From: Pricia mediterranea
Lineage (GTDB): Bacteria; Bacteroidota; Bacteroidia; Flavobacteriales; Flavobacteriaceae
Assembly (NCBI RefSeq): GCF_032248455.1
Contig: NZ_JAVTTP010000001.1
Location: 2,540,501-2,604,500, forward strand
DNA length: 64,000 bases
Direction of reading: 5' to 3'
Shown here: piece after piece, positions 7,301 through 55,240 of the stretch
Layout of the letters: every line of letters starts with the position of its first letter
Position numbering within the stretch: the stretch's first letter is position 1
Position numbers and translations under genes: made by a program
The notes under the pieces: model-generated
What the model was told of the DNA's origin: nothing
Database searches by the model: none
The model's input: only the letters and a program-made list of their open reading frames with translations

Positions 7301-8680
7301 ATGAAAACAGCAATTTATATACTACTCAGTTTATTCTTGGTCACCTTGCGGGGACAGGAAGATTCCTCGGTCGACACCATTCAAATCCCCGAAGACGCCT
7401 TGATTTCGGTTCACCCAGCCGACATGGGTCTGGACCCCTCCTCGCTGCACACCAAAGTCGATTCAATAATAACGAAAGGAATAAAAGAAGAAGCCTTTCC
7501 GGGAGCAGTGGTTCTCGTCGCGGTAAAAGGAAAAATTATTTTTGAGGAAGCCTACGGCTACCACACCTATGATAGCATCCAACGCACGGCTGCGGACGAT
7601 ATTTTCGACCTGGCGTCCGTCACCAAGATTGCGGGCCCGCTGCCCGCAATCATGAAATTGGTCGGTGAGGGTAAGCTGGATCTTGATGCCCCGTTCAGCA
7701 CCTATTGGAAACGCTGGCAAAATCGAAAGGACAAGAAGAACATCACGCTTCGGGAAATCCTGGCGCATCAAGCGGGACTTGAACCTTATATCATTTTTTT
7801 GAACGAGGTGCTCAAAAAGAACGGTAAGCCAAAACGTAGGTTCGTTAGGGCCGAACCGAATAACCGTTTCCAATATCGGGCGTATGACGGACTGTACGTT
7901 AAAGACCGATTTGACCGAAAGATGTACCGCATGATCGACCGCTCGAAGGTGGCCCAAGAAAAGAAGTACCGCTATTCCGGACTCACCTTTCTCGTCTTTC
8001 CCGAGCTTATCGAACAGATGACTGGAGATTCCTACGAATACTATCTGCAAAAGAATTTCTATCTGCCCATAGGTGCGCCGACCCTAGGGTTTCGGCCCAG
8101 TACCAAAGGCTTTTCCAATAAAATTGTGCCTACCGAGGAGGACAGTATTTTTCGGCATACCCTGACCCAGGGTTGGGTACATGATGAAAATGCTTCCCTA
8201 TTGGGCGGAGTATCCGGCAATGCGGGACTTTTCTCTACGGCGCGCGATCTAGCCAAAATGATGCAAATGTACCTACAGTACGGCATCTATAATGGCAAGC
8301 GCTATTTGTCGGGCGATACGGTCAGGGAATTTATCAAAGTACAGTATCCCGAAAACGACAACCGTCGGGGTTTGGGCTTTGACAAACCTTTGTTGGGGAA
8401 CGACACCCTGGCTCTCGAAGACGCCTACCCCGCGCCGGAGGTAAGTCCTAAAAGCTTTGGCCATAGCGGCTTTACAGGGACCTTCGTTTGGGCCGACCCT
8501 AAAAATCAAATGGTTTATATTTTTCTGTCCAATCGGGTCTATCCGTCCCGCGACCATCGAAATCTTTACGAACTCCATATCCGATCGGCGGTGCAGCAGG
8601 TGTTCTATCAAGCCCTCGAGAGGAAAATAACCCAAGCCCCCGCTTACGGTTCCGAAACGATAAGTCCGGGCCGACAATAG
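7301..8680 (+). CDS. Exported beta-lactamase-fold serine hydrolase
   Basis: A class C beta-lactamase/penicillin-binding-protein type hydrolase with an N-terminal signal peptide (MKTAIYILLSLFLVTLRGQ). The SxxK motif is S106-V-T-K109 in FDLASVTKIAGPLPAI, the YxN-like tyrosine lies in KYRYSGLTFLV, and the third motif is HSGFTGTF. The region around residues 165-215 is unusually basic. These serine hydrolases act on peptidoglycan peptides or esters; the substrate cannot be read from sequence. It lies 18 bases after hemB on the same strand and may be read from the hem transcript. Confidence 0.85.
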   Translation: MKTAIYILLSLFLVTLRGQEDSSVDTIQIPEDALISVHPADMGLDPSSLHTKVDSIITKGIKEEAFPGAVVLVAVKGKIIFEEAYGYHTYDSIQRTAADDIFDLASVTKIAGPLPAIMKLVGEGKLDLDAPFSTYWKRWQNRKDKKNITLREILAHQAGLEPYIIFLNEVLKKNGKPKRRFVRAEPNNRFQYRAYDGLYVKDRFDRKMYRMIDRSKVAQEKKYRYSGLTFLVFPELIEQMTGDSYEYYLQKNFYLPIGAPTLGFRPSTKGFSNKIVPTEEDSIFRHTLTQGWVHDENASLLGGVSGNAGLFSTARDLAKMMQMYLQYGIYNGKRYLSGDTVREFIKVQYPENDNRRGLGFDKPLLGNDTLALEDAYPAPEVSPKSFGHSGFTGTFVWADPKNQMVYIFLSNRVYPSRDHRNLYELHIRSAVQQVFYQALERKITQAPAYGSETISPGRQ

Positions 8681-8838
8681 TTAGTTGGTCGATAAGCATG
8701 GGAATCCCCGTCTTTTCAAAAAGATAGATTCACAGCATCCTTCAACTATAGCGTTCTAAAGAACAACTAGGCCTGATAATTTGACGTTTTGAATTCCAAG
8801 CCTGCCTACTTTTCATTATTTTAGCACAAAATCCGTCC

Positions 8839-10035
8839 ATGGGCCTACTCATTTTCTACGCGCTTATCTCCATCTTTTTTTCGTTCTTGTGTTCTGTGCT
8901 GGAGGCGGTGTTGCTAAGCATCAATCCAACCTTCATAAACGTAAAGAAAAAAGAGGGCAAGGCCTACGCTTTAATCTTGGAGGAGCTAAAACGAGATGTG
9001 GATAAGCCTTTGATCGCCATTCTTACCTTAAACACTATAGCACATACTGTAGGTGCTATATTGGTGGGCGTTCAGGCCAAAGTCGCTTATGCGGAACTGT
9101 ACGGTAGTACGCAACGGACTGCTTTCGGGGTAACATTTACCGAAGACCTGATGGTCGGGATTGTTTCGACCATTATGACGATTTTGATTTTGGTCGCATC
9201 CGAAATCATTCCCAAGACTATTGGGGCGACCTATTGGCGCAACCTGTCTAATTTTACCGCAAAAACCTTGAATATCATGGTGCTGGCGCTTAAATACACG
9301 GGATTGTTATGGTTTTTGCAGCTTTTCACCAAGTTGGTCGGTGGCAAGGCCCATGAGGGCAGTGTCTTTAGCCGGGAAGATTTTACGGCCATGACCGAGG
9401 TCGCCCAGGAAGAGGGCGTATTCGAAAAATCGGAATCCACGATAATCAAGAACCTGCTGCGCTTCGATGAGGTGTTGGTAAAAGATGTCATGACACCGAG
9501 GGCGGTGATGAAAATCGCCTCCGAAAAAACGACTATCGGTGAATTTTTTAAGGCCAATCCGAAAATGCGGTTTTCCCGTATCCCTGTCCATGGCGATAAG
9601 CTCGACCATATCGACGGCTTCGTCCTAAAGGATAATATCCTTGAGGAGATGGTCAAGGATAACGGTAATATACCTCTTTCTGAAATTAAACGGGAAATTT
9701 TGGTGACCGAACGAAATACCCCTATCCCCAAACTATTCGATACCCTGGTGAAAAAACGGGAACATGTCGCCCTTGTTGTGGACGAGTACGGCTCGGTAAG
9801 CGGTCTGGTCACCATGGAAGATGTTATCGAGACCCTACTCGGACTGGAAATCATGGACGAAAGTGATAGCGTGGCCGACCTTCAGGAACTAGCCCGAAAA
9901 AATTGGAAGACCCGAGCCCAGCGATCCGGCGTATTGGAATACAACTCCGGTCCCGGACCCATTGCCCCGACCGACGGATCAAATGAGGATGATGATGCCG
10001 ATACAAAAGACACAAAATCCACGAAGCACGATTAA
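8839..10035 (+). CDS. CNNM/CorB-like membrane protein with CBS pair
   Basis: The first 175 residues form a DUF21 transmembrane domain (hydrophobic segments at about 2-22, 58-75, 95-125 and 145-165, with SVLEAVLLSINPTF). A bateman module of two CBS domains follows at about residues 205-340 (VKDVMTPRAVMKIA, RFSRIPVHGD, VALVVDEYGSVSGLVTMEDVIETLLG). The family exports or regulates Mg2+ or other divalent cations. The C-terminal CorC/HlyC domain found in many relatives is absent; the protein ends in an acidic, low-complexity tail. At 398 residues it is shorter than the gliding-associated GldE, so I do not call it that. Confidence 0.85.
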   Translation: MGLLIFYALISIFFSFLCSVLEAVLLSINPTFINVKKKEGKAYALILEELKRDVDKPLIAILTLNTIAHTVGAILVGVQAKVAYAELYGSTQRTAFGVTFTEDLMVGIVSTIMTILILVASEIIPKTIGATYWRNLSNFTAKTLNIMVLALKYTGLLWFLQLFTKLVGGKAHEGSVFSREDFTAMTEVAQEEGVFEKSESTIIKNLLRFDEVLVKDVMTPRAVMKIASEKTTIGEFFKANPKMRFSRIPVHGDKLDHIDGFVLKDNILEEMVKDNGNIPLSEIKREILVTERNTPIPKLFDTLVKKREHVALVVDEYGSVSGLVTMEDVIETLLGLEIMDESDSVADLQELARKNWKTRAQRSGVLEYNSGPGPIAPTDGSNEDDDADTKDTKSTKHD

Positions 10036-10428
10036 TCCGTAACCCTGTCCTGAACCCGGTCGCTTTAAGGTTTTAAACTGTGCAGACAACTTTCAATATC
10101 TTATAATTTCATCTGCTTACCGATCGCTCGGTCTGTTTTTACGCCCCTACGTTCGTTCGCTGTTCTGAGATATCCCTTCATCGATAAATTCGGTGTTTAC
10201 CACTATTCAGCCCGTTCTCGATGGTAGTAGAATAAAAGACTGACCGACCGGAAGGTTGGTTTGGACGTATTGTAGCGATGGTGCCCCATGTTTGAGGATT
10301 GCAACCCCAAGTTTCCAGACCTATCCAAAAATTTTTGAATTTAACGCACAAGCCAATTTCGATTGGATTACTAAAAGTGCTAAAATAGCTTGGTCGTTAC
10401 TATATAAAGTTGCAATTTGTGACACGAT
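10036..10428. other. 393-base gap upstream of hflX
   Basis: No convincing gene. A short stem ACCGA-loop-TCGGT at 10119-10132 is followed by a T-run and could be a weak terminator for the CBS gene. The stretch ends in AT-rich sequence (ACTATATAAAG near 10398) that could include the hflX promoter, but no exact TAnnTTTG is present. Confidence 0.3.
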
Positions 10429-11640
10429 ATGCTTGAGAAACAGACCATAGAACACGAAAAGGCGGTTTTAATCGGAATTATGAACCGCGAACAGAACGAG
10501 GAAAAAGTGACCGAATATCTCGATGAACTCGAGTTCCTGACCTACACGGCTGGAGGTGAAGTCGAAAAACGTTTCGTTCAACGCATGGATCCGCCCGATC
10601 CCAAGACCTTTATCGGGAGCGGTAAAATGAAGGAAGTTGAGAAGTTCGTTAAGGAAAACGACATCGGTTCGGTTATTTTTGACGACGAGCTGAGTCCCGC
10701 CCAGCAACGCAATATCGAGAAGCAGTTGAAGTGCAAAATTTTAGATCGTACAACTCTGATCCTCGATATTTTCGCCCAACGTGCCAAGACCAGCTATGCC
10801 CGTACCCAGGTCGAACTGGCACAATATGAATATCTTTTGCCGAGGTTGACGGGACTTTGGACGCACTTGGAACGGCAGCGCGGAGGTATCGGAATGCGCG
10901 GTCCGGGGGAAACCGAGATCGAGACCGATAGACGTATCGTACGCGATAGGATTTCGTTGCTGAAAAAGAAACTGGCCAAGATAGATAAACAGATGGAGAC
11001 CCAACGCGGCAACCGCGGCAGTTTGGTGCGGGTGGCCTTGGTCGGTTATACGAACGTAGGGAAGTCTACCTTGATGAACGTCATCAGCAAGAGCGATGTC
11101 TTTGCCGAAAACAAGCTTTTTGCTACATTGGATACCACCGTGCGTAAAGTAGTTATCGGAAACCTGCCTTTTCTTTTGACTGATACCGTCGGCTTTATCC
11201 GCAAGCTGCCCACCCAGTTGGTCGAAAGTTTTAAAAGTACTTTAGATGAGGTACGGGAGGCGGACTTGTTGCTTCATGTCGTCGATATTTCGCATCCGCA
11301 GTTCGAGGAGCACATCGATTCCGTAAACAAAATTCTATGCGAAATAGACAGCGCGGATAAGAGTACCATCATGGTGTTCAATAAAATCGATCTTTACAAG
11401 CATGAAACGATAGCCGAGGATGACCTCGTTACCGAAAAGACCGAAAGGCATTTTACCATCGAAGAGTGGAAACGCACCTGGATGCAAAGGGTAGGCGATA
11501 GGGCATTATTTATTTCGGCATTGAATAAAGAGAACCTGGATGAGTTTAAAAAAAGAGTGTACGACGAAGTACGCGATATACATGTCACCCGCTTTCCGTA
11601 TAATGACTTTTTGTATCCGGAGCATCTAGACCAATATTAG
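10429..11640 (+). CDS. hflX: Ribosome-associated GTPase HflX
   Basis: A translation-factor-type GTPase that binds 50S or 70S ribosomes and splits stalled or hibernating ribosomes. The N-terminal HflX domain includes KTFIGSGKMKEVEKFV and DDELSPAQQRNIEKQL, followed by a coiled-coil linker carrying the glycine-rich RGGIGMRGPGETEIETDRR. The G domain has the Walker A GYTNVGKSTLMN, the switch-II DTVGFIRKLP, and NKID. The 403-residue length fits. No hfq is adjacent, unlike in gammaproteobacteria. Confidence 0.96.
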   Translation: MLEKQTIEHEKAVLIGIMNREQNEEKVTEYLDELEFLTYTAGGEVEKRFVQRMDPPDPKTFIGSGKMKEVEKFVKENDIGSVIFDDELSPAQQRNIEKQLKCKILDRTTLILDIFAQRAKTSYARTQVELAQYEYLLPRLTGLWTHLERQRGGIGMRGPGETEIETDRRIVRDRISLLKKKLAKIDKQMETQRGNRGSLVRVALVGYTNVGKSTLMNVISKSDVFAENKLFATLDTTVRKVVIGNLPFLLTDTVGFIRKLPTQLVESFKSTLDEVREADLLLHVVDISHPQFEEHIDSVNKILCEIDSADKSTIMVFNKIDLYKHETIAEDDLVTEKTERHFTIEEWKRTWMQRVGDRALFISALNKENLDEFKKRVYDEVRDIHVTRFPYNDFLYPEHLDQY

Positions 11641-11667
11641 TTTATAGGTTGGTGGGTTTCACCATTT

Positions 11668-11693
11668 ATACAGTAAACAACACCATCTATACA
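11668..11693 (+). promoter_or_regulatory. Direct-repeat regulatory element, copy 1
   Basis: ATACAG (11668-11673), 13 bases, CTATACA (11687-11693). Extended, this is ATTTATACA and ATCTATACA with a 21-base period, meaning 9-base direct repeats separated by 12. It lies 111 bases before the small secreted protein gene at 11805. Two further copies occur at 17578 and 19546, all three within 8 kb of the hybrid two-component regulator. A two-helical-turn spacing suits AraC- or LytTR-type regulators binding as tandem protomers. Confidence 0.6.
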
Positions 11694-11804
11694 AGGTCGT
11701 TTTTTCTAAGCCCGATGACCTGTTAATTTAGTTACAGGTTAGCGAACATTCTAGTGGTAGCCGCAGCAAGGGAATATACTCCAACTGACCAAAAAGCGTA
11801 AATC

Positions 11805-12017
11805 ATGAAAAAGTGTGTTTTGATGTTTACTTTGTGGGTTATGGTGTTGGTCCTTGCCGTCTTAAGCCAAGCGAAGAATACTGCGAAATTCGATCAGGGG
11901 CTAATTGTTAGGGAAGACGCGGCGGAAAATTCCTTGTTGGAGAAAGAAGTTGTGATCGGGGAAAACATGACCGAAAATGCTGTACTAGGGAAAAATCTAC
12001 AGGATAGTATTCGATAG
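11805..12017 (+). CDS. Small secreted protein of unknown function
   Basis: A 70-residue product with a clear signal peptide (MKKCVLMFTLWVMVLVLAVLSQA) and an acidic mature part of about 45 residues with related segments NSLLEKEVVIGENM and NAVLGKNLQD. I do not recognise it. It stands alone, 111 bases downstream of direct-repeat element copy 1 and about 500 bases upstream of the hybrid regulator, so it is a candidate target of that regulator. The C-terminus has no membrane anchor. Confidence 0.6.
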   Translation: MKKCVLMFTLWVMVLVLAVLSQAKNTAKFDQGLIVREDAAENSLLEKEVVIGENMTENAVLGKNLQDSIR

Positions 12018-12512
12018 TGCCAAAATAGTTTCTATGAGTGCCTTCCGATAAATGTTAATGATAGCACAAAATTTCTCATCCATGTATGGTGTTCATTGTG
12101 AATAAATTATGTAATTTTAGAACACTCAATTAACATTATCAAGCTGAGCGCTAGCCTTGAAGATGGAATTTTTGATTTTTGAATTTCTGTGACAGTCGCC
12201 CAGAAAGAGCAAAAAAGTTTTGATTACTATGAGACTGCCATTCCATAAGGTACGGTTCTAGGCATCGCGCTGTACAATTAAGCGTGGTTTTATGCCGCTT
12301 GATGGGACCATTATTGGAACACCTATCCAATTTTTTGGCATCCGGTGATGTGCTCGATTATAGGTTTCGGGGGAACTACCTGAATCAGCATCCTTTGTGG
12401 TAAATATCAATTCTGATACATCGTACGGACCGTACGGATTGGCGGTATCATAGTTTTTACATATACGACTTGGTTAGCGGAGGGAGTTGGAATTCATCCT
12501 ATCCATAAAACC
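12018..12512. other. 495-base gap upstream of the hybrid regulator
   Basis: No intact gene. Between about 12215 and 12390 one plus-strand frame reads as a Trp/Tyr-rich sequence (FDYYETAIP, WDHYWNTYPIFWHP) broken by several stop codons, which may be a decayed membrane protein or chance. At 12422-12439 a nine-base unit CGTACGGAY is tandemly repeated and contains the palindrome GTACGGACCGTAC (12423-12435), shortly before a possible -7 element TAGTTTTT at 12451-12458. Confidence 0.35.
12423..12435. promoter_or_regulatory. Palindrome upstream of the hybrid regulator
   Basis: GTACGGACCGTAC is a perfect 13-base palindrome lying 77 bases before the regulator start and 15 bases before TAGTTTTT, a near match to the -7 consensus. 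It could be an operator controlling the regulator gene. A chance origin cannot be excluded because it also arises from a simple nine-base tandem repeat. Confidence 0.3.
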
Positions 12513-15500
12513 ATGCACCCGACAACAGAGACAACAAAAGGAGTCGTTCTCGTTCTTTTAATGATAGCCTTGGGCGGGGCGCAATCCGTTTTCTCCCAAT
12601 CGCAGGTCAATTTCAGACAGTTATCGGTCAAGGAAGGGCTTTCACAGAATAGCGCCATATCCATAACCCAAGACAGCACCGGTTATCTCTGGATCGCAAC
12701 CCAAGACGGTCTGAACCGATACGACGGGAAAAAGTTCAAAGTCTATCCGTACCGGTTCGTGGACATCACGAAACGCGATTATAGCCATCTCGGAAAGGTC
12801 TATAACGATAGGCAGGGCGGGCTGTGGATAATCCCCATGGACAAAATTCCCCGCAAGTTCGATCCCCTGGGAGACAAGTTCGAGATCCTGCCCCATATTG
12901 ACAATGCCAGCGTAATCTACCAAGGACAAGACGATAACCTGTGGATCGGTACTTATTCCAAAGGACTTTACGTATTGCGGCCCGATGCGGCCCGACCGGA
13001 GAAGGTGCTGCCGTTTTCCGAGGTTGGGGGGACAATCTACAATATCGCCCAAAACAGTGATGCCGTTGTGACATTGGCCACCGACGGGCACCTTGTCGTA
13101 TATTCGCCCGAATCGGAAGAGGCGCTACGGATAGTTCCGAAGACCCGCCACGATACGGCGGAAATAAATTTTAGCGACATCGTTTATGATGCGGCGGGGC
13201 GGCAATGGATCGGGACTTTCGGCGATGGGCTTTATTTTAGGATAAAGAACGACGATAGTTTTTATCGTATCTCCGAACTGCCGTTTACGGATCCACTTAC
13301 CCAGGACCTCAACATTTTGGACTTGCATATCGATTCAAAGAAGCGATTGTGGGTCGCTACCTATGGTCGAGGACTGTACATGATCGATTTCGAAAAAAAC
13401 AGCATCGCACACTTCGGTGCCGAGAAACATAACCCGAAAGCCTTACATTATAACGACATCCTCTGTATTTATGAAGATTACACCGGTACCCTGTGGTTCG
13501 GTACTGATGGGGCGGGAGCAAGCTATTATGATGAATACCTTGAAAAGTTGAACTCCCTCACCAATTACGAAACCCCCGAGAACATCAATATCGACGTGGT
13601 ACGGTCCATTACAGTCGATAAACATGGAATCGTTTGGATTGGTACCTCGGGTAAGGGCCTTACCCGATACGAGCCGGCCACCAATAGTTGGCTCACTTAT
13701 AACGCGGCGTCCGGAAACCGGAATACGATATCCTCCGACCGGGTCATGAGCCTTTGGGCAGATGCAGACAATGATTTGTGGATCGGTACCCAAGGCGGCG
13801 GGCTCGACCTTCTGCTTGCCGATGGGAAGTTCCTGCATTATTCAATCGATACGGATGTTCCGTTGCGGGCCCAGACCATCTGGTGCATTTATAAGGATGA
13901 CGCCGACCGAATTTGGCTGGGTACACGGGAGCAGGGATTGATTCTATTCGATAAGGAAAAAGGAAAAATCGATCGTTTCGTACACCATCCCGATCAAGGG
14001 AATAGCCTTCCGAGCAACAACATACGCGTAATTACCTCAGATGCAAAAGGAAACTTGTGGATAGGCACCGAAACCGATGGAGTTGCCCATTTCGATGTCG
14101 GGAAAAGGACTTTTAAAACCTATAACCGGAAGGATGGCGATTCTCTATCCAGCGACAGGATCAAGTCTCTTTATCATGGGCCTAACGGAATTCTTTGGAT
14201 CGGCACCAATGGCGGCGGACTCGACGCCTTCGATATTAAAAATAAAAGATTCCGCACCTACACCGTCGACCAAGGCCTGGCCAATAACGTTATCTATTCC
14301 ATTTTACCGGACGCCACGGGAAACCTTTGGCTAAGCTCCAACAAGGGTATTACCAAATTCGCTCCCGGCGCAACTTTTGCGGGAGATCCCCAAATCACCA
14401 ACTACACGAATTATGCGGGTCTCGCCACGGAATTCAACACCGGGGCTTCTTATAAAGATCCGGACGGCACCCTTTATTTCGGTGGGTTGGACGGGTTTTA
14501 TTGGTTCAGGCCCGATGAAATTAAGGAAAACACCATGCCGCCCAAGACTACTATCACTGGATTCAGCGTACTCGACGCCCCCCGTTCCCTATCCCGTCGC
14601 CCCGAACTCGATCATGACCAAAACACGGTCTCATTTACCTTTTCGAGCATGCAGTATTCCCTTCCCGAGAAGAACCGGTATCGGTACAAACTGGACAATT
14701 ACGATGAGGATTGGGTGGAAGCGGGCAACGTCAATCTCGCTCGCTATACGCAACTACCGCCGGACGATTACCGATTTCAGGTCAGAAGTAGCAACTACGA
14801 TGGGGTGTGGAGCGAAAATTCCGCAACCTACTCGTTTTCCATTGCACCGCCCTGGTACGCCACCGCCGCTGCCAAATTCGTATACGTCCTGTTGTTGTTG
14901 GCTACCATACTGATGGTATATATGTACCTCAAGTGGCGTTGGCGAATGCAGCTCGATTTGCGGCTAAAGGAGGATGAGACACGGCGATTGCAGCAATTGC
15001 ACGATATGAAATCAAAACTGTATACCGATATATCCCACGAGTTCAGAACGCCGCTAACCTTGATTTCGGGGCCCATCGATGCCAAATTGGGCGAGGATGG
15101 ACTTACTGACACCGAGGTCTCGAATTTTTCGATGATCAAACGCAACACCGACCGCTTGATTGCCCTGGTAGACCAGCTCTTGCACTTGGCAAAGCTCGAA
15201 AGGGGCAAACTGAAACTGAAAATGATGGAAGGCGACCTCGGTCTCTTTTTGGGGATGCTTGCCAGCTCTTTCGAATACCGGGCCTCGCAAAAAAATATGG
15301 ATTACGACATCCAAATCGATCCTTTTGGAAGAGCGTATTACGATGGGGATGCCCTCGAGAAAATCGTGACGAACCTGCTATCAAATGCTTTTAAATATGG
15401 CCGTAACGGGGGAACGTGCCGGTTCGAGGCCTTGAAGAAGAGTGGGAAACTGCAAATAAGAATACGAAATACTGTAGAGGAACCATCTCAAATCGATGTC

Positions 15501-16634
15501 GAGAAGCTGTTCGCCCGTTTTTACCAAAAAGACGAACATGCCGAAGGTGCCGGGGTAGGCCTGTCTTTGGTCAAGGAGCTGGTACAGCTCTATCGAGGCG
15601 AAATCGGTGTTCGGATGGAAGCCGATGACACCATTTTTTTTCATGTTGAACTGCCTCTCGAAATTTCGATGCCCCAAACAAATAATCCAAAAGCTTCCAC
15701 GGACGAAATGGTTCAGGAATGGCCGGAGCGGGAATTTGCCGCTCCCAACGGTGCCTCAAAGAGTTCGAATAAGCCATTCAACGACACGAATAGGTACCCA
15801 GAAGCAGCATCGACGGAAGCCCACTATATTGAGTCCAATGTTGATGAGGTATTCCCACACGCAATTTCCGTAAATGCCGATTCTAACGAACTGCCCCTGA
15901 TTCTTATCGTCGAGGACCATAGCGAGGTTCGAAGCTTCCTAAAATCCGTATGGGCGGAACGATATGGCATTTTGGAAGCTGCGAACGGAGCTGAGGGTAT
16001 CGAAAAGGCCTTGGAAACCGTACCCGACCTGATTATTTCCGATGTACGTATGCCCGAAGCCGACGGCATCGAACTCTGTCGCACCTTAAAATCCGACGGG
16101 CGTACCAGCCACATCCCGATTATTTTGTTGACCGCCGGTACCGATGAAGAACAGGAGATACAGGGGTTGCGGTCAGGTGCCGATGATTTTGTCGTAAAAC
16201 CGTTTAAAATAAACGTTTTGCAAACCCGGGTCGAAAACTTGATAAGGGCCAGAAAGGCTTTGCGCGATCGCTATAGCCAAGAAGTGGTCTTGAAGAGCAA
16301 GGACCTCGCCATAACCCCCACTGATGAGAAATTATTGAACCGGCTTCAAAAGGTGCTTGACGAAAATCTGAACGACTCAGGTTTTAGCGCCAAATCATTC
16401 AGCCATAAAATGGGGATGAGCCGTATGCAGCTACATCGAAAATTGCAGGTTTATACGGGTTTAAGTACAACTGAGTTTATTCGCTCGCAACGTTTGAAAC
16501 AGGCGTTGCACATTCTCAAGACCAGCGATTCCTCGGTTAGCGAGGTAGCCTACACGGTCGGCTTCAATACTCCGTCGTATTTTATCAAATGTTTTAAGGA
16601 AACCTACAAAAAAACCCCGGCGGATTATCTATAA
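12513..16634 (+). CDS. Hybrid two-component system sensor kinase/AraC regulator
   Basis: A one-protein phosphorelay of 1373 residues. In order: signal/first membrane segment (about 10-30), a periplasmic two-bladed beta-propeller sensor with many WIGT/LWIGT repeats (about 40-690), a Y_Y_Y domain (about 700-775), a membrane helix (FVYVLLLLATILMVYMYL), a dimerisation/phosphoacceptor domain with H842 in DISHEFRTPLTLI, an ATPase domain (NLLSNAFKYG, GAGVGLSLVKELV), a linker, a receiver domain with phosphoacceptor D1177 in IISDVRMPEADG and K in VVKPF, and a C-terminal AraC-type helix-turn-helix. Such proteins normally sense glycan fragments and switch on an adjacent polysaccharide locus. Here no SusC/SusD or glycosidase genes adjoin it; the neighbours are small exported proteins and direct-repeat sites. 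Confidence 0.96.
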   Translation: MHPTTETTKGVVLVLLMIALGGAQSVFSQSQVNFRQLSVKEGLSQNSAISITQDSTGYLWIATQDGLNRYDGKKFKVYPYRFVDITKRDYSHLGKVYNDRQGGLWIIPMDKIPRKFDPLGDKFEILPHIDNASVIYQGQDDNLWIGTYSKGLYVLRPDAARPEKVLPFSEVGGTIYNIAQNSDAVVTLATDGHLVVYSPESEEALRIVPKTRHDTAEINFSDIVYDAAGRQWIGTFGDGLYFRIKNDDSFYRISELPFTDPLTQDLNILDLHIDSKKRLWVATYGRGLYMIDFEKNSIAHFGAEKHNPKALHYNDILCIYEDYTGTLWFGTDGAGASYYDEYLEKLNSLTNYETPENINIDVVRSITVDKHGIVWIGTSGKGLTRYEPATNSWLTYNAASGNRNTISSDRVMSLWADADNDLWIGTQGGGLDLLLADGKFLHYSIDTDVPLRAQTIWCIYKDDADRIWLGTREQGLILFDKEKGKIDRFVHHPDQGNSLPSNNIRVITSDAKGNLWIGTETDGVAHFDVGKRTFKTYNRKDGDSLSSDRIKSLYHGPNGILWIGTNGGGLDAFDIKNKRFRTYTVDQGLANNVIYSILPDATGNLWLSSNKGITKFAPGATFAGDPQITNYTNYAGLATEFNTGASYKDPDGTLYFGGLDGFYWFRPDEIKENTMPPKTTITGFSVLDAPRSLSRRPELDHDQNTVSFTFSSMQYSLPEKNRYRYKLDNYDEDWVEAGNVNLARYTQLPPDDYRFQVRSSNYDGVWSENSATYSFSIAPPWYATAAAKFVYVLLLLATILMVYMYLKWRWRMQLDLRLKEDETRRLQQLHDMKSKLYTDISHEFRTPLTLISGPIDAKLGEDGLTDTEVSNFSMIKRNTDRLIALVDQLLHLAKLERGKLKLKMMEGDLGLFLGMLASSFEYRASQKNMDYDIQIDPFGRAYYDGDALEKIVTNLLSNAFKYGRNGGTCRFEALKKSGKLQIRIRNTVEEPSQIDVEKLFARFYQKDEHAEGAGVGLSLVKELVQLYRGEIGVRMEADDTIFFHVELPLEISMPQTNNPKASTDEMVQEWPEREFAAPNGASKSSNKPFNDTNRYPEAASTEAHYIESNVDEVFPHAISVNADSNELPLILIVEDHSEVRSFLKSVWAERYGILEAANGAEGIEKALETVPDLIISDVRMPEADGIELCRTLKSDGRTSHIPIILLTAGTDEEQEIQGLRSGADDFVVKPFKINVLQTRVENLIRARKALRDRYSQEVVLKSKDLAITPTDEKLLNRLQKVLDENLNDSGFSAKSFSHKMGMSRMQLHRKLQVYTGLSTTEFIRSQRLKQALHILKTSDSSVSEVAYTVGFNTPSYFIKCFKETYKKTPADYL

Positions 16635-17134
16635 AGTGCTCCATAGCTGGCGGTAGGGTAGATTTTCAAGTTCACGTTACATCTGTTGCATATATTGGTA
16701 CATATGTGGTATCCGCTATTGCGATTGCTATGTAAATTGTACCTGAAACCTTCTAAAGTCCGGCTTCCCAATCAAATAAGTAGGCGGATAATCCTAAAAT
16801 CCAAACTCCGAACCCAAAACCCGAGAACATGACCACCTTAAAAAAAATCGACCCCGCAACATGGGTGCTTTTCGCAATCTTGATACTGGCGGCCTGGATG
16901 GTAGTGGCCGCTTTGACTTCTCTAGAATTCGCATAAAATCCGCGATGGGTAGTAGATGACATAATATACATTTTAGCAAGACCGATTATACAGCTTGGAG
17001 CTTAAGCTGTTTGCCAAAACTCTCAAAGTTCCGATTAAAAATTGTTTCTACCTGTCGAACAGACCTGAGAATGTGAATTCTGACAGAAGGCCTTATGTTT
17101 ACTTTTTGATGAACGGAACACCTATAGGTAGGAA
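16635..17134. other. Gene-poor segment downstream of the hybrid regulator
   Basis: Contains only one microprotein candidate (16829-16936). A palindrome AGCTTAAGCT within the hairpin ACAGCTT-7-AAGCTGT (16988-17010 region) follows that candidate but lacks a T-run. The rest shows no recognisable gene or repeat. Confidence 0.3.
16829..16936 (+). CDS. Single-helix microprotein candidate (35 residues)
   Basis: ATG to TAA encodes 35 residues: a short basic start (MTTLKKIDPATW) followed by one hydrophobic helix (VLFAILILAAWMVVAALTS) and LEFA. The hydrophobicity pattern is that of a small inner-membrane protein, and the frame begins just after a purine/AAAACCC-rich leader. There is no homology that I recognise and no visible ribosome binding site, so it could be a chance frame. 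It sits in the gene-sparse zone around the hybrid regulator. Confidence 0.35.
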   Translation: MTTLKKIDPATWVLFAILILAAWMVVAALTSLEFA

Positions 17135-17502
17135 ATGAAAAATCTTAAAACGATCATGAAGTCAAAATTCCTGCTTGTCTTGGCCACCTCGCCATTTCTG
17201 TTGACCGGCAGCGCCTGTACTACCGATTCGGAAGCTTGAGACGAAGATTCCGAAGTACGCCCCTGGACCGTGACTATTTGATGAACTCGAACAACCAGTA
17301 TTATGACCTAAAAGTATATCTGTGCAATATGCTTTGTTCGGATACCTTGGTTGCCCAAAACCGGGATATCAATGCGTAGGCAATAAATCCATATTTTAAG
17401 GTCAACCTGCTGTTCGAGGAGGGAAATCGTTAATACAAGTTGGAGAAGTGTGGCACTGCGCAGAACTATTTTCTAAGGTACTGCGAAACGCTAACAACAT
17501 AA
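17135..17502 (+). pseudogene. Decayed lipoprotein gene
   Basis: It begins with an intact lipoprotein signal, MKNLKTIMKSKFLLVLATSP and then FLLTGSACTTDSEA, ending at TGA 17237-17239. Reading on in the same frame gives DEDSEVRPWTVTI before two more stops. A shifted frame from 17281 continues with protein-like sequence (SNNQYYDLKVYLCNMLCSDT, INPYFKVNLLFEEGN, YKLEKCGTAQNYFLRYCETL) interrupted by TAG at 17377 and TAA at 17431, ending at TAA 17500. Stops plus a frameshift within coherent, cysteine-containing sequence indicate an inactivated gene for an exported protein of about 120 residues. The parent family is not recognised. Confidence 0.5.
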
Positions 17503-17940
17503 TCGGAGCAGGAGTTGACCGCATTCGAGATTGGTATTTCGACTAGTACCTAATTAATGTCCTTTCTCGTGCGATCTATACAGGAAAACACGTCATCTAT
17601 ACATTTTTGGTTGAGTGGTCTGTTACAATTATTAATATTTCGAACTTTAGAATATTAAGCAATGATACATCGCATCGACAAAGTCCTTATAAATCCTTGA
17701 GCTACGGTGCGAATCACCAAATCGTTTTACGAGACCATCTAAAGCCATCTCCTATCGAACGATTAAAATCTGTGGGCACCTTTTAACACACCATTTCGAT
17801 TGGCATAAAACCTTACGATCAACTATGATAAATACCTGACCAGATGTATTCCTTGAACAAATAGTCAAATTATCAAGGTCGCTTTCATCGGATTAGGGCT
17901 ATCTTAGGTAAATATTAAGCTAAACCTTTAAAATCAGGAA
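17503..17940. other. Leader region of the DUF4412-like gene
   Basis: No gene longer than a dozen codons. It contains direct-repeat element copy 2 (17578-17603), followed by AT-rich sequence with CTGTTAC and AATATTTCGAACTTTAG that may include a promoter. The element lies 337 bases before the gene at 17941. Confidence 0.35.
17578..17603 (+). promoter_or_regulatory. Direct-repeat regulatory element, copy 2
   Basis: The best copy: ATCTATACA at 17574-17582 and an identical ATCTATACA at 17595-17603, a perfect nine-base direct repeat with a 21-base period. In the common notation it is ATACAG-N13-CTATACA. It lies just downstream of the decayed lipoprotein gene and upstream of the 279-residue exported protein. 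Confidence 0.6.
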
Positions 17941-18780
17941 ATGAAAATCAGAACAAAAACATTCACATTCATCGTATTGCTGCTAATCGGGACCACGGTG
18001 CAGGGTCAGTTTCTCAAAAAACTGGGCAAACGTGCCGAAAAAGCGGCAGAACGCACCGTATTGAACAGGGCGGATGAAGAAGCAGCAAAAAAAACCGACC
18101 AGGCCTTGGACGAGGTTTTGACCATGGAGATGGGAACTATGGGCGGCTCCCAGGTCGACCCCGATGTACTGCCAGGTTCGTACGAGTTCGATTGGCGCTA
18201 CACGTTGCGCATGTCGCACGAAAAGGGAGACATCGATTTGAACTATTTTTTATCTGAAGATGGCGGGGCTTTCGGTAGTAGACCAGAGCTGAACCAAGGC
18301 ACAGGCTCTATGGGCAATATGTTGATGGTAATCGATCCAGGGCTTGAGACTACCACGATTCTGATGGACAATGGGGGACAGAAAACCGGTATGGTCATGT
18401 CGAATCCGGATTTGTCAGAAGCCGTCGCCCAAGAATCCGATATGGATGAATATGAATTGAAGGAAATCGGCACCAAGGAAATCCTGGGCTATACCTGCCA
18501 AGGCTTTCAGATGGAGAACGAAGATACAAAAATGACCATGTACATAGCTTTCGATACCCCTGTCAGTTTCAGTGATATGTACTCGGGTAGCAATGCCAAA
18601 CAGCTACCTAAAGGATTTGATCCCAAATGGTTGGATAAAATCGGCGAGAACAGCCTGATGATGGAAATGGATTTTGTCAATAAAAAGAAGAAAAAGCAAA
18701 GTGCAAAAATGACCTGTGTCGCCTTGGAGAAAGACCCGATGACCATTGACCTCGGCGAATATAATTTTAGTAGCTTTTAG
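17941..18780 (+). CDS. Exported DUF4412-like protein
   Basis: A 279-residue product with a signal peptide (MKIRTKTFTFIVLLLIGTTVQGQ) and a basic, alanine-rich stretch after it (FLKKLGKRAEKAAERTVLNR). The mature domain resembles DUF4412-type periplasmic proteins: GSYEFDWRYTLRM, DNGGQKTGMVM, a cysteine in LGYTCQGFQMENED, then MTMYIAFDTPVSFSDMYS. Such proteins are usually predicted to be periplasmic with a beta-rich fold; the function is unknown. No signal of an operon with the next gene is seen. It is the gene nearest downstream of direct-repeat element copy 2. Confidence 0.75.
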   Translation: MKIRTKTFTFIVLLLIGTTVQGQFLKKLGKRAEKAAERTVLNRADEEAAKKTDQALDEVLTMEMGTMGGSQVDPDVLPGSYEFDWRYTLRMSHEKGDIDLNYFLSEDGGAFGSRPELNQGTGSMGNMLMVIDPGLETTTILMDNGGQKTGMVMSNPDLSEAVAQESDMDEYELKEIGTKEILGYTCQGFQMENEDTKMTMYIAFDTPVSFSDMYSGSNAKQLPKGFDPKWLDKIGENSLMMEMDFVNKKKKKQSAKMTCVALEKDPMTIDLGEYNFSSF

Positions 18781-18966
18781 ATTGGGACTTCAAACATTGA
18801 AGCCATTTCTTTCATGAAAGCAGAATAGGTGGGGATCAAAGTTTTTTTTGGGATATTCAATCCGGCAACCAAGATGTCAACGCTACATAAGTGTGAATAA
18901 CGAATATCGTGAATTTCGAAGTAAACAACGGGTAAATACATTAGTTAACTATTAATAATCTTAAAT

Positions 18967-19320
18967 ATGAAAATTTTGAAGACAATGAAGGGAAATTTTT
19001 TTTTGATCGGCTGTGGCGCCGCAATGATTGCAATGACCGCAGGATGCAGTGAAGACGACCCCTTGAACCCGGCGGGCAACTGTTTCGACGGAAATTGGGC
19101 CCAAGAATATAGTGGTGAGTTGGAAAGATATTCCAACGCGGCTACAGCGTACAGCCAAGATCCGACCGAGAGCAATTGCAACGATTATAAAAATGCCGCA
19201 AAAGCCTATTTGGATGCCTTGGAATCCGTTTATAAGTGTGTACCCACGGCCAGTAGATCAGAAATAAAACAAAGTATCGACGAGGCCAAGGCGGACATCG
19301 ACCGCGAAGGCTGCGATTAA
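18967..19320 (+). CDS. Small cysteine-containing lipoprotein
   Basis: A 117-residue product with a lipoprotein signal ending in MTAGC (lipidated cysteine at about residue 27). The mature domain is helical and has four further cysteines, in GNCFDGNW, SNCNDYKNA, YKCVPT and EGCD, spaced as if to form two disulfides. The fold looks like a two-helix bundle exposed on the membrane. No named family is recognised. It lies downstream of the DUF4412-like gene with a 186-base gap. Confidence 0.75.
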   Translation: MKILKTMKGNFFLIGCGAAMIAMTAGCSEDDPLNPAGNCFDGNWAQEYSGELERYSNAATAYSQDPTESNCNDYKNAAKAYLDALESVYKCVPTASRSEIKQSIDEAKADIDREGCD

Positions 19321-19545
19321 GGTTTAGATCGATAATTCCGAATAACACGGACAGTTGGTAAAAGACCGAATCTGGAATTAAAGATCATGTTGCGCCAGAC
19401 GTTGAATTTTGGTTTGGCTATTTGCTTCAACTCGGATGCGGGTACAATAGCCCCTAGGCAATTTCGAGGATAAAAAATGTTCGAGGGAATGATTGCCAGT
19501 AGCCCTAAGGCCTTTGCGGAATAATTTGGAATACCTCTGTCAACC

Positions 19546-19571
19546 ATACAGGTTTTGCGACTAACTATACA
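19546..19571 (+). promoter_or_regulatory. Direct-repeat regulatory element, copy 3
   Basis: ATACAG (19546-19551), 13 bases, CTATACA (19565-19571). Extended repeats are AACCATACA and AACTATACA with the same 21-base period as copies 1 and 2. It lies 55 bases before the 40-residue membrane microprotein candidate at 19627. Confidence 0.55.
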
Positions 19572-19626
19572 AATCCGATTTACAGCTCGGTAATAGGTAG
19601 TAACTTCGAAAACATAACTTCCACTG

Positions 19627-19749
19627 ATGAACTCAATATATCCCCAGAATTCCAAAAATCGGACGACCAAAGCGATTATCGTTTACGTCCTTCTTTTTGC
19701 CATTGCCGGTCTGAGCTTAGTCACCTGTTTTACGCTACTATTTCGGTAA
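19627..19749 (+). CDS. Single-helix microprotein candidate (40 residues)
   Basis: Encodes 40 residues with a basic N-terminus (MNSIYPQNSKNRTTK) and one strong hydrophobic helix (AIIVYVLLFAIAGLSLVTCF) ending TLLFR. The arrangement predicts a bitopic inner-membrane peptide. Placement 55 bases after direct-repeat element copy 3 supports expression. There is no recognised homologue, so the call rests on composition and context. Confidence 0.4.
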   Translation: MNSIYPQNSKNRTTKAIIVYVLLFAIAGLSLVTCFTLLFR

Positions 19750-19770
19750 GACTTACATTGTCCAAGATAC

Positions 19771-19854
19771 CTATTTTTCTATATACGGACGAGCCACCAC
19801 GGCGCTGACGTAGGCCACGATGTAGATAAACAATACAAGAATGTACTTGTCCAT
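19771..19854 (-). CDS. Single-helix microprotein candidate (27 residues)
   Basis: A minus-strand frame of 27 residues, MDKYILVLFIYIVAYVSAVV followed by ARPYIEK. It has the hydrophobic helix and polar ends of a very small membrane protein, but the frame is short enough to occur by chance and lacks an identifiable promoter. Confidence 0.22.
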   Translation of the reverse strand: MDKYILVLFIYIVAYVSAVVARPYIEK

Positions 19855-19968
19855 GGACAAAAGGGATAGGACTTCGCTACTTGATATACGTTGGAAAGCT
19901 ATCAAAAGGATTATTCCCCTTATTCCAAATTAAGCTTGTACCATTAAACTCTTGGTAATATCCAACAA

Positions 19969-20886
19969 TCAAAGAAAGTCGTCAACTTGCTTGTACGCAT
20001 CGATTACGGCTTGTTCGCCGGCCTTGCCCTCTTTGGAATTTCCGTGTTCCATGCCAAGCACCCCGTCATATCCCTTTTCGGAAATCCACTTAAAAATGTT
20101 CTTGTAATTAAGTTCACCGGTGGTAGGTTCTTTTCTTCCAGGGTTGTCCCCGATTTGGATGTAGGCGATTTCGTCCCAAGTGAGATCCATGTTGCGGATT
20201 ATATGTCCCTCCGTTTTCTGTAGGTGGTATATATCGTATAATATTTTACAGGAAGGGCTATTGACCGCCTTGCAAATCATGTAGGTCTGATCGGAGTTCT
20301 GCAAATATAGGTCGGGAGAGTCGGACAGCGGCTCAAGTACCATGACCAGGCCATGCGGCTCAAAAATTTCGGCACCGCGTCTTAGGGCTTCAATAACATG
20401 GGCGTCCTGTACTCCGATAGGCAGGTTTCTTTCGTAGCCGCCCGGTACTACTGTCATCCATTTTGCGTTGCACCTTTTGGCGGTCTCGACGGCCCTGTTA
20501 CATCCGTCCAAAAATATATCGATGTATTCTTGCTTGCCTGCAGCCAAGGTGTTCGCCATATTACCTCCTTTATCGACTACGAAAACACCCATGGTCATAC
20601 CGCGCTTGGCCAGGGTCTCGCCCATTTTGGTCTGGAGGGCGGTGTCGCGCTTCATCATGCCGTTGTCTTCAAAGGCGGTAAAACCTTGATCGGCCATAAA
20701 ATTGATTTGATCGATCGGGTCTTTGCCCGCAAGTTCTTCGAACATTCCCAAATGGGGGGCATAGTTAAGGTTAAATTTATGGGGTTCGGCGGAGGTATTC
20801 GGGATAGCGGCATAGGTGAGTGCCCCGCCCATGGATAGTGCCCCTCCGGTCAGAGCTGTTTTTTGTAGAAAGTTTCTTCGCTTCAT
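19969..20886 (-). CDS. Tat-exported hydroxypyruvate isomerase-like TIM-barrel protein
   Basis: A 305-residue AP-endonuclease-2/xylose-isomerase-like TIM barrel. The N-terminus carries a twin-arginine type signal, MKRRNFLQKTALTGGALSMG. Barrel motifs include GFTAFEDNGMMKRD, GVFVVDKGGNMANT, LVMVLEPLSDSPDLYL (metal-ligand glutamate), CKILYDIYHLQKTEGH and GVLGMEHGNSKEG, which follow the hydroxypyruvate isomerase family. Export suggests action on sugars or keto-sugars in the periplasm. It is read on the same strand as, and 159 bases after, the GMC oxidoreductase pair and is probably part of the same sugar-oxidation locus. Confidence 0.88.
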   Translation of the reverse strand: MKRRNFLQKTALTGGALSMGGALTYAAIPNTSAEPHKFNLNYAPHLGMFEELAGKDPIDQINFMADQGFTAFEDNGMMKRDTALQTKMGETLAKRGMTMGVFVVDKGGNMANTLAAGKQEYIDIFLDGCNRAVETAKRCNAKWMTVVPGGYERNLPIGVQDAHVIEALRRGAEIFEPHGLVMVLEPLSDSPDLYLQNSDQTYMICKAVNSPSCKILYDIYHLQKTEGHIIRNMDLTWDEIAYIQIGDNPGRKEPTTGELNYKNIFKWISEKGYDGVLGMEHGNSKEGKAGEQAVIDAYKQVDDFL

Positions 20887-20976
20887 GTTTATTTGAGTTT
20901 AATTTGGTATAATTATTCTTCGGATTTTCTTCTTTAAATGATATGAAGAAGGTGTTGGAATTTAACATATGCCCAA

Positions 20977-21030
20977 AAAGATCAAAGAGTTAAAGGCCAT
21001 TGTGTTCGCCCCTAACTCTTGCTCTTTCGG
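20977..21030 (-). terminator. Possible terminator or leader hairpin
   Basis: On the minus strand AAGAGTTA and TAACTCTT form a stem around a GC-rich loop, and the 3' side runs into ATCTTTTT. It lies after the oxidoreductase small-subunit gene and before the TIM-barrel gene on the same strand, so it may attenuate transcription between them. The long loop makes the call uncertain. Confidence 0.35.
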
Positions 21031-21045
21031 TTCAAGTTATGAATC

Positions 21046-21693
21046 CTATATGGACCACGCTTTGCCGCCCGTCAGCTCCTGCAAATCATCGCAGGGAATA
21101 TATTCACCGGGAACGGGAAGATACTCCAGTATTTCTTCCCCAACGTACTCCGAGGTTTTATAGCCCATTATGGTCAGGCCCCTTAGATTGTTGGCAAAGG
21201 CGAAACGGAAGATATCTTCGGCAAGGATGGCTTCTTTGCCATCCGTCAGCGCCTCGTGATACTGTTTTATGGCCTCAAAATTTTTGATTTGATCTTCAGG
21301 GGTCGTTTTTAGCGCGGTGGCGAGTACGGGCTCCAGTTCCTCTGGGGTCAGGTCCCCGGCCTTCTCCTTTTCCGAATCCTTAAGGGCCTTCTCCATAAAA
21401 CGGCCGATCGACATCTTGACGAATTCTTGCTGTTGGGGTTCCATTACCTGATCCGTAAACCTGTCGATAAAGAGGTGAACCTGGGTTTCGGAAGCCGAGG
21501 GGGTGTCGGTCTTTGGGATGATGATATCCACCAGCTTTGTAAGGGCCGCTCCTTCATCCTTACTAAAAAAGTCGGGCGTCCATTCCAGTTCCGTCTCGTT
21601 TTTACAGCTTTGAACGATGCTTATCAAAGTAGGGGCGGTCACGGTGTAACCGAGTGCCAACCCCATATTTCTGAGTGCTTTTCTTCTGTCCAT
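21046..21693 (-). CDS. Gluconate 2-dehydrogenase subunit 3 family protein
   Basis: A 215-residue protein with a Tat-like start (MDRRKALRNMGLALGYTVTA) and a cysteine in SIVQSCKNE. The family motif FSKDEGAALTKLVDIIIPKTDTPSA is the subunit-3 signature, normally preceding DFIDRFT-like sequence, here HLFIDRFTDQVM. It is the small partner of periplasmic FAD-dependent sugar dehydrogenases, needed for export or stability of the GMC catalytic subunit. Its start codon overlaps the stop of the GMC gene (TAATG), so the two are translationally coupled and very likely form one complex. Confidence 0.92.
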   Translation of the reverse strand: MDRRKALRNMGLALGYTVTAPTLISIVQSCKNETELEWTPDFFSKDEGAALTKLVDIIIPKTDTPSASETQVHLFIDRFTDQVMEPQQQEFVKMSIGRFMEKALKDSEKEKAGDLTPEELEPVLATALKTTPEDQIKNFEAIKQYHEALTDGKEAILAEDIFRFAFANNLRGLTIMGYKTSEYVGEEILEYLPVPGEYIPCDDLQELTGGKAWSI

Positions 21694-23411
21694 TATATGG
21701 TTCCTTTTTTAAGTTGCTCCGCCGCATGGTTCGCGGCCCTGGCGGTAAAGGCCATGTAGGTCAACGATGGGTTGACGCAACTGGCGGAGGTCATGAAGGC
21801 CCCGTCGGTCACATATACGTTGGGCACATCATGTACCTGATTATAGGCGTTCAGTACCGAGGTGCGTCGGCTTCTTCCCATTCTTGCCGTACCCATTTCG
21901 TGGATTCCAAGACCAGGTGCCCCTGGATTATCGTAGGGCTGTACGTCTTTAAGTCCCGCTTTTTCCAGCATTTCCACGGCGGAGTCTTTCATGTCTTTCC
22001 GCATGGTCCATTCATTCTCTTTGAACTCCGCGTCGAAAGTAACTGTAGGCAGTCCCCATCCGTCCAATTTTTCGTAGTCAAGGGTCATACGGTTTTCTTC
22101 GTAGGGCAGCATTTCCCCGAAACCGGTCATCCCGAACCTCCAGCCTCCAGGTTTGAGAATGGTCTCCTTCAGCTCTTTTCCGTAAGACAGTTCCGCGACC
22201 GAGTCTTCCCAGTTGCCCCGCGAGGCCCCGCCTTGGTAGCCGAAACCACGAATATAGTCCGTACGGTTCGAATCGCCGCCCAGGTTCCTGAAACGCGGCA
22301 GATAGATACCGTTGGGCTTTCGTCCCTTATAATATTTGTCCTCAAAACCATCAAACTTGCCGGAAGCACCGACGCCCAGATGATGGTCCATGATATTTCG
22401 GCCCAACTGGTCGGAATCGTTCCCCATACCATCGGGAAAGCGGTCGGATTTCGATTGCATCAAGATAGCGGTGGAGGCAATGGCCGATGCACATAGAAAA
22501 ATGACCTTGGCTTTGAATTCATGGGTCTCTTTGGTTACGCGGTCAATGACCTTGACCCCGGTCGCCTTTTTGGTGTCGGGGTCGTAAATGATCTCGTGTA
22601 CGATGGAATCCGGCCGAAGGGTCATATTGCCGGTGGCCTCTGCGGCGGGCAGGGTAGATGAGTTACTGCTGAAGTAGGCGCCGAAAGGGCACCCACGGAT
22701 ACAACGGTTTCGATATTGGCAGCGCTGGCGTCGGTCGCCCTCGAATTTTTTATCACTATTGATGTGGGCGACCCGCCCTGCCGTTACGACCCGACCATCA
22801 AAATTTTCGGCTACCTTCTCCCTAAAATGGTCTTCGAGGCAATTGAGCGGCATCATGGGCTCGAAAATCCCGTCGGGCAGCTGTTCAAGGCCCAACGGTT
22901 CCCCAGTGACCCCGATATAGGCTTCCACCTTGTCGTACCACGGGGCGATATCGCGATACCGTACCGGCCAATCTATCGATATCCCGTCCTTTTGGTTGGC
23001 GGCAAAGTCGAAATCGCTCCAACGATAGCTATGCCGGCCCCATTGCAGCGAACGGCCGCCGACGTGATAGCCGCGCATCCAATCGAAGCGCTTGATCTCG
23101 TTGTACGGATGCACGAGGTCGTTGACGAACCACATGTGGCTCGGTGCCTTCGTGGTGTAACCGGTACGGGCCTGTTTGAGCTGCTTTTTCTGTTCCTCCA
23201 ACGGAAGTTCGCCACGGAGGGGGAAGTCCCAATCGTCCATATTCGCGGTCTCGTAGTCCTCTATATGCTTGACCATCCGACCGCGTTCGAGTACCAATGT
23301 CTTGAGCCCGTTCTCACAGAGCTCCTTTGCGGCCCATCCTCCACTGATACCCGTACCCACCACGATGGCATCGTACGATTCCTGTTGTTGGTTGTAATAA
23401 AATTTATCCAT
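21693..23411 (-). CDS. GMC-family FAD-dependent sugar dehydrogenase
   Basis: A 572-residue glucose-methanol-choline oxidoreductase. The FAD-binding motif is at the N-terminus (IVVGTGISGGWAAKELCENG, then VLERG). The cysteine cluster CQYRNRCIRGCPFGAYFS, HEMGTARMG near the C-terminus and ASCVNPSLTYMAFTARAANH complete the family pattern. It has no signal peptide of its own, consistent with co-export with the Tat-bearing subunit 3 encoded by the coupled next gene. With DUF1080 hydrolases nearby, the likely reaction is oxidation of a glycoside or sugar, plausibly at C3 as in glucoside 3-dehydrogenases; the position of oxidation is inference. No cytochrome c gene is adjacent. Confidence 0.92.
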   Translation of the reverse strand: MDKFYYNQQQESYDAIVVGTGISGGWAAKELCENGLKTLVLERGRMVKHIEDYETANMDDWDFPLRGELPLEEQKKQLKQARTGYTTKAPSHMWFVNDLVHPYNEIKRFDWMRGYHVGGRSLQWGRHSYRWSDFDFAANQKDGISIDWPVRYRDIAPWYDKVEAYIGVTGEPLGLEQLPDGIFEPMMPLNCLEDHFREKVAENFDGRVVTAGRVAHINSDKKFEGDRRQRCQYRNRCIRGCPFGAYFSSNSSTLPAAEATGNMTLRPDSIVHEIIYDPDTKKATGVKVIDRVTKETHEFKAKVIFLCASAIASTAILMQSKSDRFPDGMGNDSDQLGRNIMDHHLGVGASGKFDGFEDKYYKGRKPNGIYLPRFRNLGGDSNRTDYIRGFGYQGGASRGNWEDSVAELSYGKELKETILKPGGWRFGMTGFGEMLPYEENRMTLDYEKLDGWGLPTVTFDAEFKENEWTMRKDMKDSAVEMLEKAGLKDVQPYDNPGAPGLGIHEMGTARMGRSRRTSVLNAYNQVHDVPNVYVTDGAFMTSASCVNPSLTYMAFTARAANHAAEQLKKGTI

Positions 23412-55190: not shown

Positions 55191-55240
55191 TGAGTGAATT
55201 TTTTGAAAAATCCTTCCATTCTCGGAAAGGTGTCGGTCCC

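Follow-up and report, generated by a model that had tools for sequence, protein, structure and literature searches.

The LytTR operators of the Escherichia coli regulators YpdB and BtsR are direct repeats about two helical turns apart; their half-site and targets differ from those described here. In the staphylococcal agr system, direct-repeat operators of the LytTR regulator AgrA lie in the divergent intergenic region of promoters P2 and P3, with one arm leading to the regulator and the other to a small peptide and a structured RNA, RNAIII, which encodes delta-haemolysin. Here, we analysed a stretch of 64,000 nucleotides from Pricia mediterranea (assembly GCF_032248455.1, contig NZ_JAVTTP010000001.1, positions 2,540,501 to 2,604,500; hereafter the window), in which the direct repeat ATACAG-N13-CTATACA occurs three times around the gene of a 1373-aa hybrid two-component regulator, whose domain order we take to be that of the HTCS family of Bacteroidetes polysaccharide loci. 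From sequence comparison, the repeats look like operators of a different regulator than the adjacent one, with a LytTR response regulator as candidate binder, and the first of them is the head of a conserved unit of operator, MKKC-type membrane micropeptide and structured RNA. That the repeats are LytTR operators and that the unit of operator 1 carries the micropeptide and the RNA is very probably the best explanation of the whole. The layout is reminiscent of agr P2/P3–RNAIII, and we do not claim membership in agr. The sensor here combines TPR repeats, His_kinase and HATPase_c and is not of the AgrC type, the RNA has no Rfam match and the tested micropeptides have no Pfam match.

The repeat is found in exact form at positions 11668, 17578 and 19546, always on the plus strand, and in none of 100 dinucleotide shuffles. 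The original prediction had placed these copies between genes and had seen no other in the window by eye. Both statements hold: the three are intergenic with respect to credible genes, the overlapping open reading frames (ORFs) being short mechanical ones by inspection, and permitting two mismatches adds a single match, at position 18 on the minus strand. Across the whole genome the exact form is confined to the same three places, with no crowd of random copies; one mismatch yields four further matches, and the reversed control yields three. Of the nine-base half-sites with a 21-base period that had been proposed, the period and the perfect second copy (ATCTATACA repeated) stand, whereas the repeat unit in orthologous loci is longer, at about 11 bases (approximately CCATYTATACA). 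Operator 1 extends as a 36-mer over 11660..11695 (CACCATTTATACA-N10-CCATCTATACA), operator 2 over 17570..17605 and operator 3 over 19538..19573, all on the plus strand.

Loci orthologous to that of the hybrid regulator gave the first hint of what the repeats are, with similar sites around this gene in two genomes of the same genus and in one of another genus (G014; G numbers denote genomes and L numbers loci). The operator common to Flavobacteriaceae reads TnCCRnTATACA-N9-ACCATYTATACA. Of 397 Flavobacteriaceae genomes, 48 contain the pattern YATACA-N11-CATYYATACA, with 57 matches in total compared to 6 for the reversed pattern (a count of printed rows), and positions left free by the pattern are also conserved (C at -5 in 26/27 sites, C at -4 in 23/27). 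A matrix of 21 sites, none of them from the window's genus, ranked operators 1, 2 and 3 first to third in the window with scores of 32.2, 25.1 and 21.0; the next score was 2.9 and the maximum in 1.5 Mb of Markov sequence 8.1. With the working matrix of 23 sites, two of which come from the lipoprotein promoters of the same-genus genomes G001 and G002, the three scored 32.3, 24.1 and 20.8 (next 3.0; Markov maximum 11.5). Given the shuffles, the matrix ranks against Markov sequence and the 57 versus 6 pattern matches, we rejected the idea that the motif arose by chance. A profile scan covering 12 genomes gave 12 matches at E<=5 in that of P. mediterranea, including sites 1, 2 and 3 at E=5e-6, 0.03 and 0.83. 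Conservation in relatives, which the prediction had made a point of, is seen within the genus as well as across Flavobacteriaceae: counterparts of operator 1 lie behind hflX also in G001, G002 and G003, all of the same genus, and operator 3 has counterparts in G001 (22.5) and G002 (23.3).

We inspected 51 loci, comprising 30 of the 57 family matches and 21 from a genus scan. Beside the non-coding sites among them recurs an ORF of about 244-260 aa, often with an ORF of about 190 aa on the other side, and its product was a receiver–LytTR response regulator in all three cases tested (L053, L057 and L058). An ortholog of this regulator is present in 41/48 operator genomes versus 82/349 others (p=7e-17, ignoring descent), and for 31 of the 57 operator matches the LytTR gene is at most 600 bp away. 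Near LytTR orthologs with at least 62% identity to the query (L104-L115), operators scoring 14-41 were found in 11/12 cases, the exception being that of P. mediterranea itself; near 18 fetched homologs below 50% identity (L116-L133), no operator scored above 10.3. Seven operator genomes have no LytTR ortholog. Five of these have their match in coding sequence (L060, L063, L065, L069 and L072), G006 has one between genes (L064), and the locus of the seventh, G312, falls outside those inspected. Association across the 397 genomes thus favours the LytTR half of the earlier suggestion that the binder is of AraC or LytTR type; the AraC half did not survive, as discussed below. The P. mediterranea LytTR regulator is intact and encoded elsewhere in the genome (G000:C1:2060114-2060845), adjoining the gene of the sensor with TPR repeats, His_kinase and HATPase_c domains; the protein (L134:7114-7845) matches Response_reg at E=1.3e-24 and LytTR at E=1.3e-20. 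In the LytTR promoters of G001, G002 and G003, operators score 16-18.

The operators also stand at a fixed distance from a promoter element. Of the 78 operators scoring at least 20, 30 are followed at offsets 26-29 by a perfect TAnnTTTR, and the number rises to 68 if one mismatch is permitted, compared to 0-1 and 4-10, respectively, in five control windows. The flavobacterial sigma-A box TAnnTTTG is placed at -12 to -5 in PMC9723704, and together with the offset of 26-29 this would put the operator centre near -58. By this arithmetic, the position is close to that of AgrA, for which PMC4227749 gives a proximal repeat centre near -60. In the window, all three sites fit the two-repeat operator and two of the three fit the -10 box: TAATTTAG at 11724..11731 (plus strand, offset 28 behind operator 1) and TAACTTCG at 19601..19608 (plus strand, offset 27 behind operator 3), each with one mismatch to TAnnTTTR.

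Downstream of operator 1, a predicted structured noncoding RNA of about 229 nt extends over 12225..12453 on the plus strand (covariance model score 227.9 bits, the window sequence being part of the model). It contains a near-invariant hairpin, AGGTTTC-GGGG-GAACTACCT. The block 12228-12452 is 78-80% identical in three relatives of the same genus, one of which has no close hybrid regulator, and its fold has a z-score of -4.6 on the plus strand and -2.5 on the minus strand. A DNA search found the RNA in 9/60 genomes including its own, in five of them on the contig of the LytTR gene and within about 2 kb of it; the nine sequences support 60 consensus pairs, 16 of which show a double change. With the covariance model, the RNA was detected in 62/397 genomes, and in 57 of the 62 it lies 325-1400 bp from the LytTR start, always in divergent orientation. 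The remaining five are three genomes of the window's genus, where the RNA is away from the LytTR gene, G329, where it is at a contig end on another contig, and G407, where the match is weak and a LytTR ortholog is missing. Of 62 model matches, four were set aside (two echoes on the opposite strand, one truncated at a contig end and one that was short), which left 58 homologs. In their sequence-only alignment, the 40 column pairs with the strongest covariation include 9 consensus pairs, against an expectation of 0.07 that takes no account of the tree. An Rfam covariance search of the window gave no match to the RNA at 12225-12453, and in seven relatives it gave one sub-threshold NsiR4 match that lies outside the RNA, which speaks against a known Rfam family. 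An identity with 6S was rejected, as the 6S candidate, itself below the cut-off, is located elsewhere (C1:3591251). A coding region was likewise rejected, by eye, as gap lengths are not confined to multiples of three and some genomes do not keep the short frame of the initial ATG.

The same arrangement recurs in the 58 units. An operator scoring at least 12 lies upstream of the RNA in 56, the MKKC regular expression finds a micropeptide in 53 (one of them, L266, spurious), and an intrinsic terminator follows the RNA in 21 compared to 1/58 shuffled; an ORF of at least 150 aa is found in 29. In a second set, made up of 80 named LytTR loci and sharing members with the 397-genome set, a divergent operator of at least 16 is present in 73, the RNA core in 73 and both in 70. 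The ten loci without both comprise three from Pricia with neither, four shortened by contig ends and three with a weak operator.

Some RNA-unit operators are followed, at a distance of 46-68 bases, by GTT(T)CCCC stretches that could pair by complementarity with the near-invariant GGGGGAAC of the RNA. In the 160 bases after the operator, TTCCCC is found for 24/104 RNA-unit operators (offsets 46-68; shuffled mean 1.1, maximum 5; upstream 0/104) and for 8/74 other operators (shuffled mean 1.2; upstream 2/74), counts that include close relatives and come from two overlapping collections. The exact C-rich stretch is missing from most units and from the window's three operators. Pairing of a C-rich leader with the RNA is our hypothesis from these counts. 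Extending it, we tentatively suggest that a LytTR two-component system of marine Flavobacteriaceae (Zobellia, Maribacter, Eudoraea, Pricia and others) might possess an RNAIII-like effector RNA, whose GGGGGAAC hairpin would pair with stretches resembling GUUCCCCC in 5′ leaders, both that of its own transcript and those of further mRNAs in the regulon. One regulator would thus control promoters as well as translation, while the micropeptides could feed back on the membrane sensor. We hold this extended scheme to be possible rather than likely.

Two other roles for the RNA compete with that of a free effector, and both appear somewhat doubtful. It could be a cis-acting leader that controls the next gene. 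The gene behind the RNA, known for 55 units, is nrdB-like in 27, a hybrid regulator in 9 (including the window) and similar to the 117-aa gene of the window in 5. An nrdB-like ribonucleotide reductase gene takes this place in many other genera (e.g., L143:8971-9954), the nrdB-like and hybrid regulator genes are all co-directional with the RNA, and in the window only about 60 bases separate RNA and hybrid regulator, with no terminator found between them. However, the genes behind the RNA fall into 10 clusters, the gap to nrdB measures 296-752 bases in eight of the 27 cases, and 21/58 units have an intrinsic terminator after the RNA (1/58 shuffled). An equally uncertain role is that of a structured 3′ region which stabilises or localises the micropeptide mRNA and has no pairing partner. 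The micropeptide precedes the RNA on the same strand in about 52/58 units, but the near-invariance of the hairpin around GGGGGAACTACC points to a binding partner.

That the hybrid kinase/AraC regulator in the middle (12513..16634, plus strand; Pfam: Reg_prop, Y_Y_Y, HisKA, HATPase, REC and AraC HTH) binds the three sites, as the original prediction held, is very unlikely: it does lie between sites 1 and 2, operators occur close to its orthologs in G001, G003 and G014, which are about 60-74% identical, and operator and hybrid regulator are associated overall (p=0.005 before allowing for LytTR), but the association is gone within the 123 LytTR-positive genomes (operator in 16/42 with and 25/81 without the hybrid regulator; p=0.43), the same-genus genome G002 keeps operators despite having no close ortholog (best match 37%), and eight loci with distant orthologs of 43-48% identity (L041-L048) have no matrix score above 8.8. 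Under less strict criteria, requiring two TATACA boxes, two of these eight, L041 and L042, show single-mismatch pairs. The operators of G002 lie behind hflX (32.0), further on (23.3) and before a gene partly similar to the DUF4412 gene of the window (52% over 60 residues; 27.8). Moreover, the 34 genomes with a hybrid regulator and no LytTR ortholog hold one pattern match, in coding sequence (G075, L063). We therefore rejected an AraC or HTCS binder on the basis of the distant loci, the G002 sites and the co-occurrence across 397 genomes; the protein shares the domain order of the HTCS family, its eight distant orthologs are without these operators, and no SusC- or SusD-like protein was among the ten window proteins run against Pfam (7301 to 23411). 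In nine genomes the hybrid regulator and LytTR genes are no more than 10 kb apart, which is best read as the mark of an old neighbour and possible target. Probably, it is a downstream target or neighbour of the operators and not their binder. The case illustrates an easy error, namely to ascribe an operator to the nearest regulator gene.

Several observations weigh against the assignment of operators and unit to a LytTR regulator. The 397 genomes are related, and the p-values ignore descent. The strict operator pattern is missing from 82/123 LytTR-positive genomes, and the RNA is detectable in only 61 of these 123. In P. mediterranea itself, the LytTR promoter (L134:7845-8694) holds a degraded operator (best score 4.6), with a TATATTTG box remaining. 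Three loci (L335, L344 and L367) have the RNA and a weak divergent operator (8.0-8.7), and 8/60 consensus pairs of the RNA are broken in 2 or 3 of the 9 sequences. In the window, the -10 box of operator 2 is weak, with two mismatches, and site 3 alone is non-significant in the genome-wide profile scan; operator 3 nevertheless gains support from counterparts in two genomes, G001 and G002, and from a -10 box of its own.

The LytTR explanation builds on computed features, namely the operator family, its -10 spacing, the association with the LytTR gene and the conservation and covariation of the RNA, from which we infer binding, activation, start sites and transcript ends as well as any effector role of the RNA. 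A LytTR regulator encoded elsewhere would bind two direct repeats of about 11 bases, centred about 58 bases before the start site, and activate promoters equipped with a -10 box. Operator 1 would drive a transcript with the membrane micropeptide and the conserved RNA, possibly with read-through into the hybrid regulator, operator 2 the DUF4412 gene and the small lipoprotein gene, and operator 3 the second membrane micropeptide. Related genera have the unit next to the LytTR gene in divergent orientation, and members of this genus have it behind hflX, most simply because it moved. Literature on LytTR regulons and structured RNAs in Bacteroidetes, Flavobacterium and Zobellia, in the portions available, offered no description of such a unit, and the main text of PMC9723704 does not mention LytTR. 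The analysis yields a precise operator, a promoter geometry, a regulator–sensor pair, two micropeptide families and a large covarying RNA family. The unit occurs in genera that include named culture-collection strains, and a parallel to agr–RNAIII in a distant phylum becomes directly testable.

The genes after the sites had been predicted to encode small exported or membrane proteins, and this was borne out. The MKKC-type membrane micropeptide behind operator 1 (70 aa; 11805..12017, plus strand) was recognised by the regular expression and has no Pfam match. Behind operator 2, the first credible gene, at a distance of about 335 bases, encodes the DUF4412 protein (279 aa; 17941..18780, plus strand; PF14371). 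The small lipoprotein-like gene that follows (117 aa; 18967..19320, plus strand) has an ortholog in G001, with 70% identity, that stands behind an operator of score 20.9. Operator 3 precedes the second membrane micropeptide (40 aa; 19627..19749, plus strand), with the core KAIIVYVLLFAIAGLSLVTC and with homologs in G001 (MKAIFVYIVLFAIAGLSL) and G002 (MKALIIYIVLLAIAGLSL), each behind an operator. Across the genus, a small lipoprotein resembling phage Bor is preceded by an operator in 4/4 members (16.4, 32.1, 32.3 and 29.7). In G014, an operator is followed by a small gene and then by a CHAT-TPR protein (Pfam; L040:15268-18168), and relatives of both, the latter 54% identical (L138:1175-4150), lie behind a weaker operator (13.6) in G004.

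A 35-aa membrane ORF at 16829-16936 (MTTLKKIDPATWVLFAILILAAWMVVAALTSLEFA), in a stretch that is 72% identical in G003, is possibly a third micropeptide. At 17135-17400, short disrupted frames give the visual impression of a decayed small lipoprotein gene, akin to that at 18967. Finally, a tRNA-Phe gene (gaa) at 55117-55203 overlaps the start of a long minus-strand ORF.

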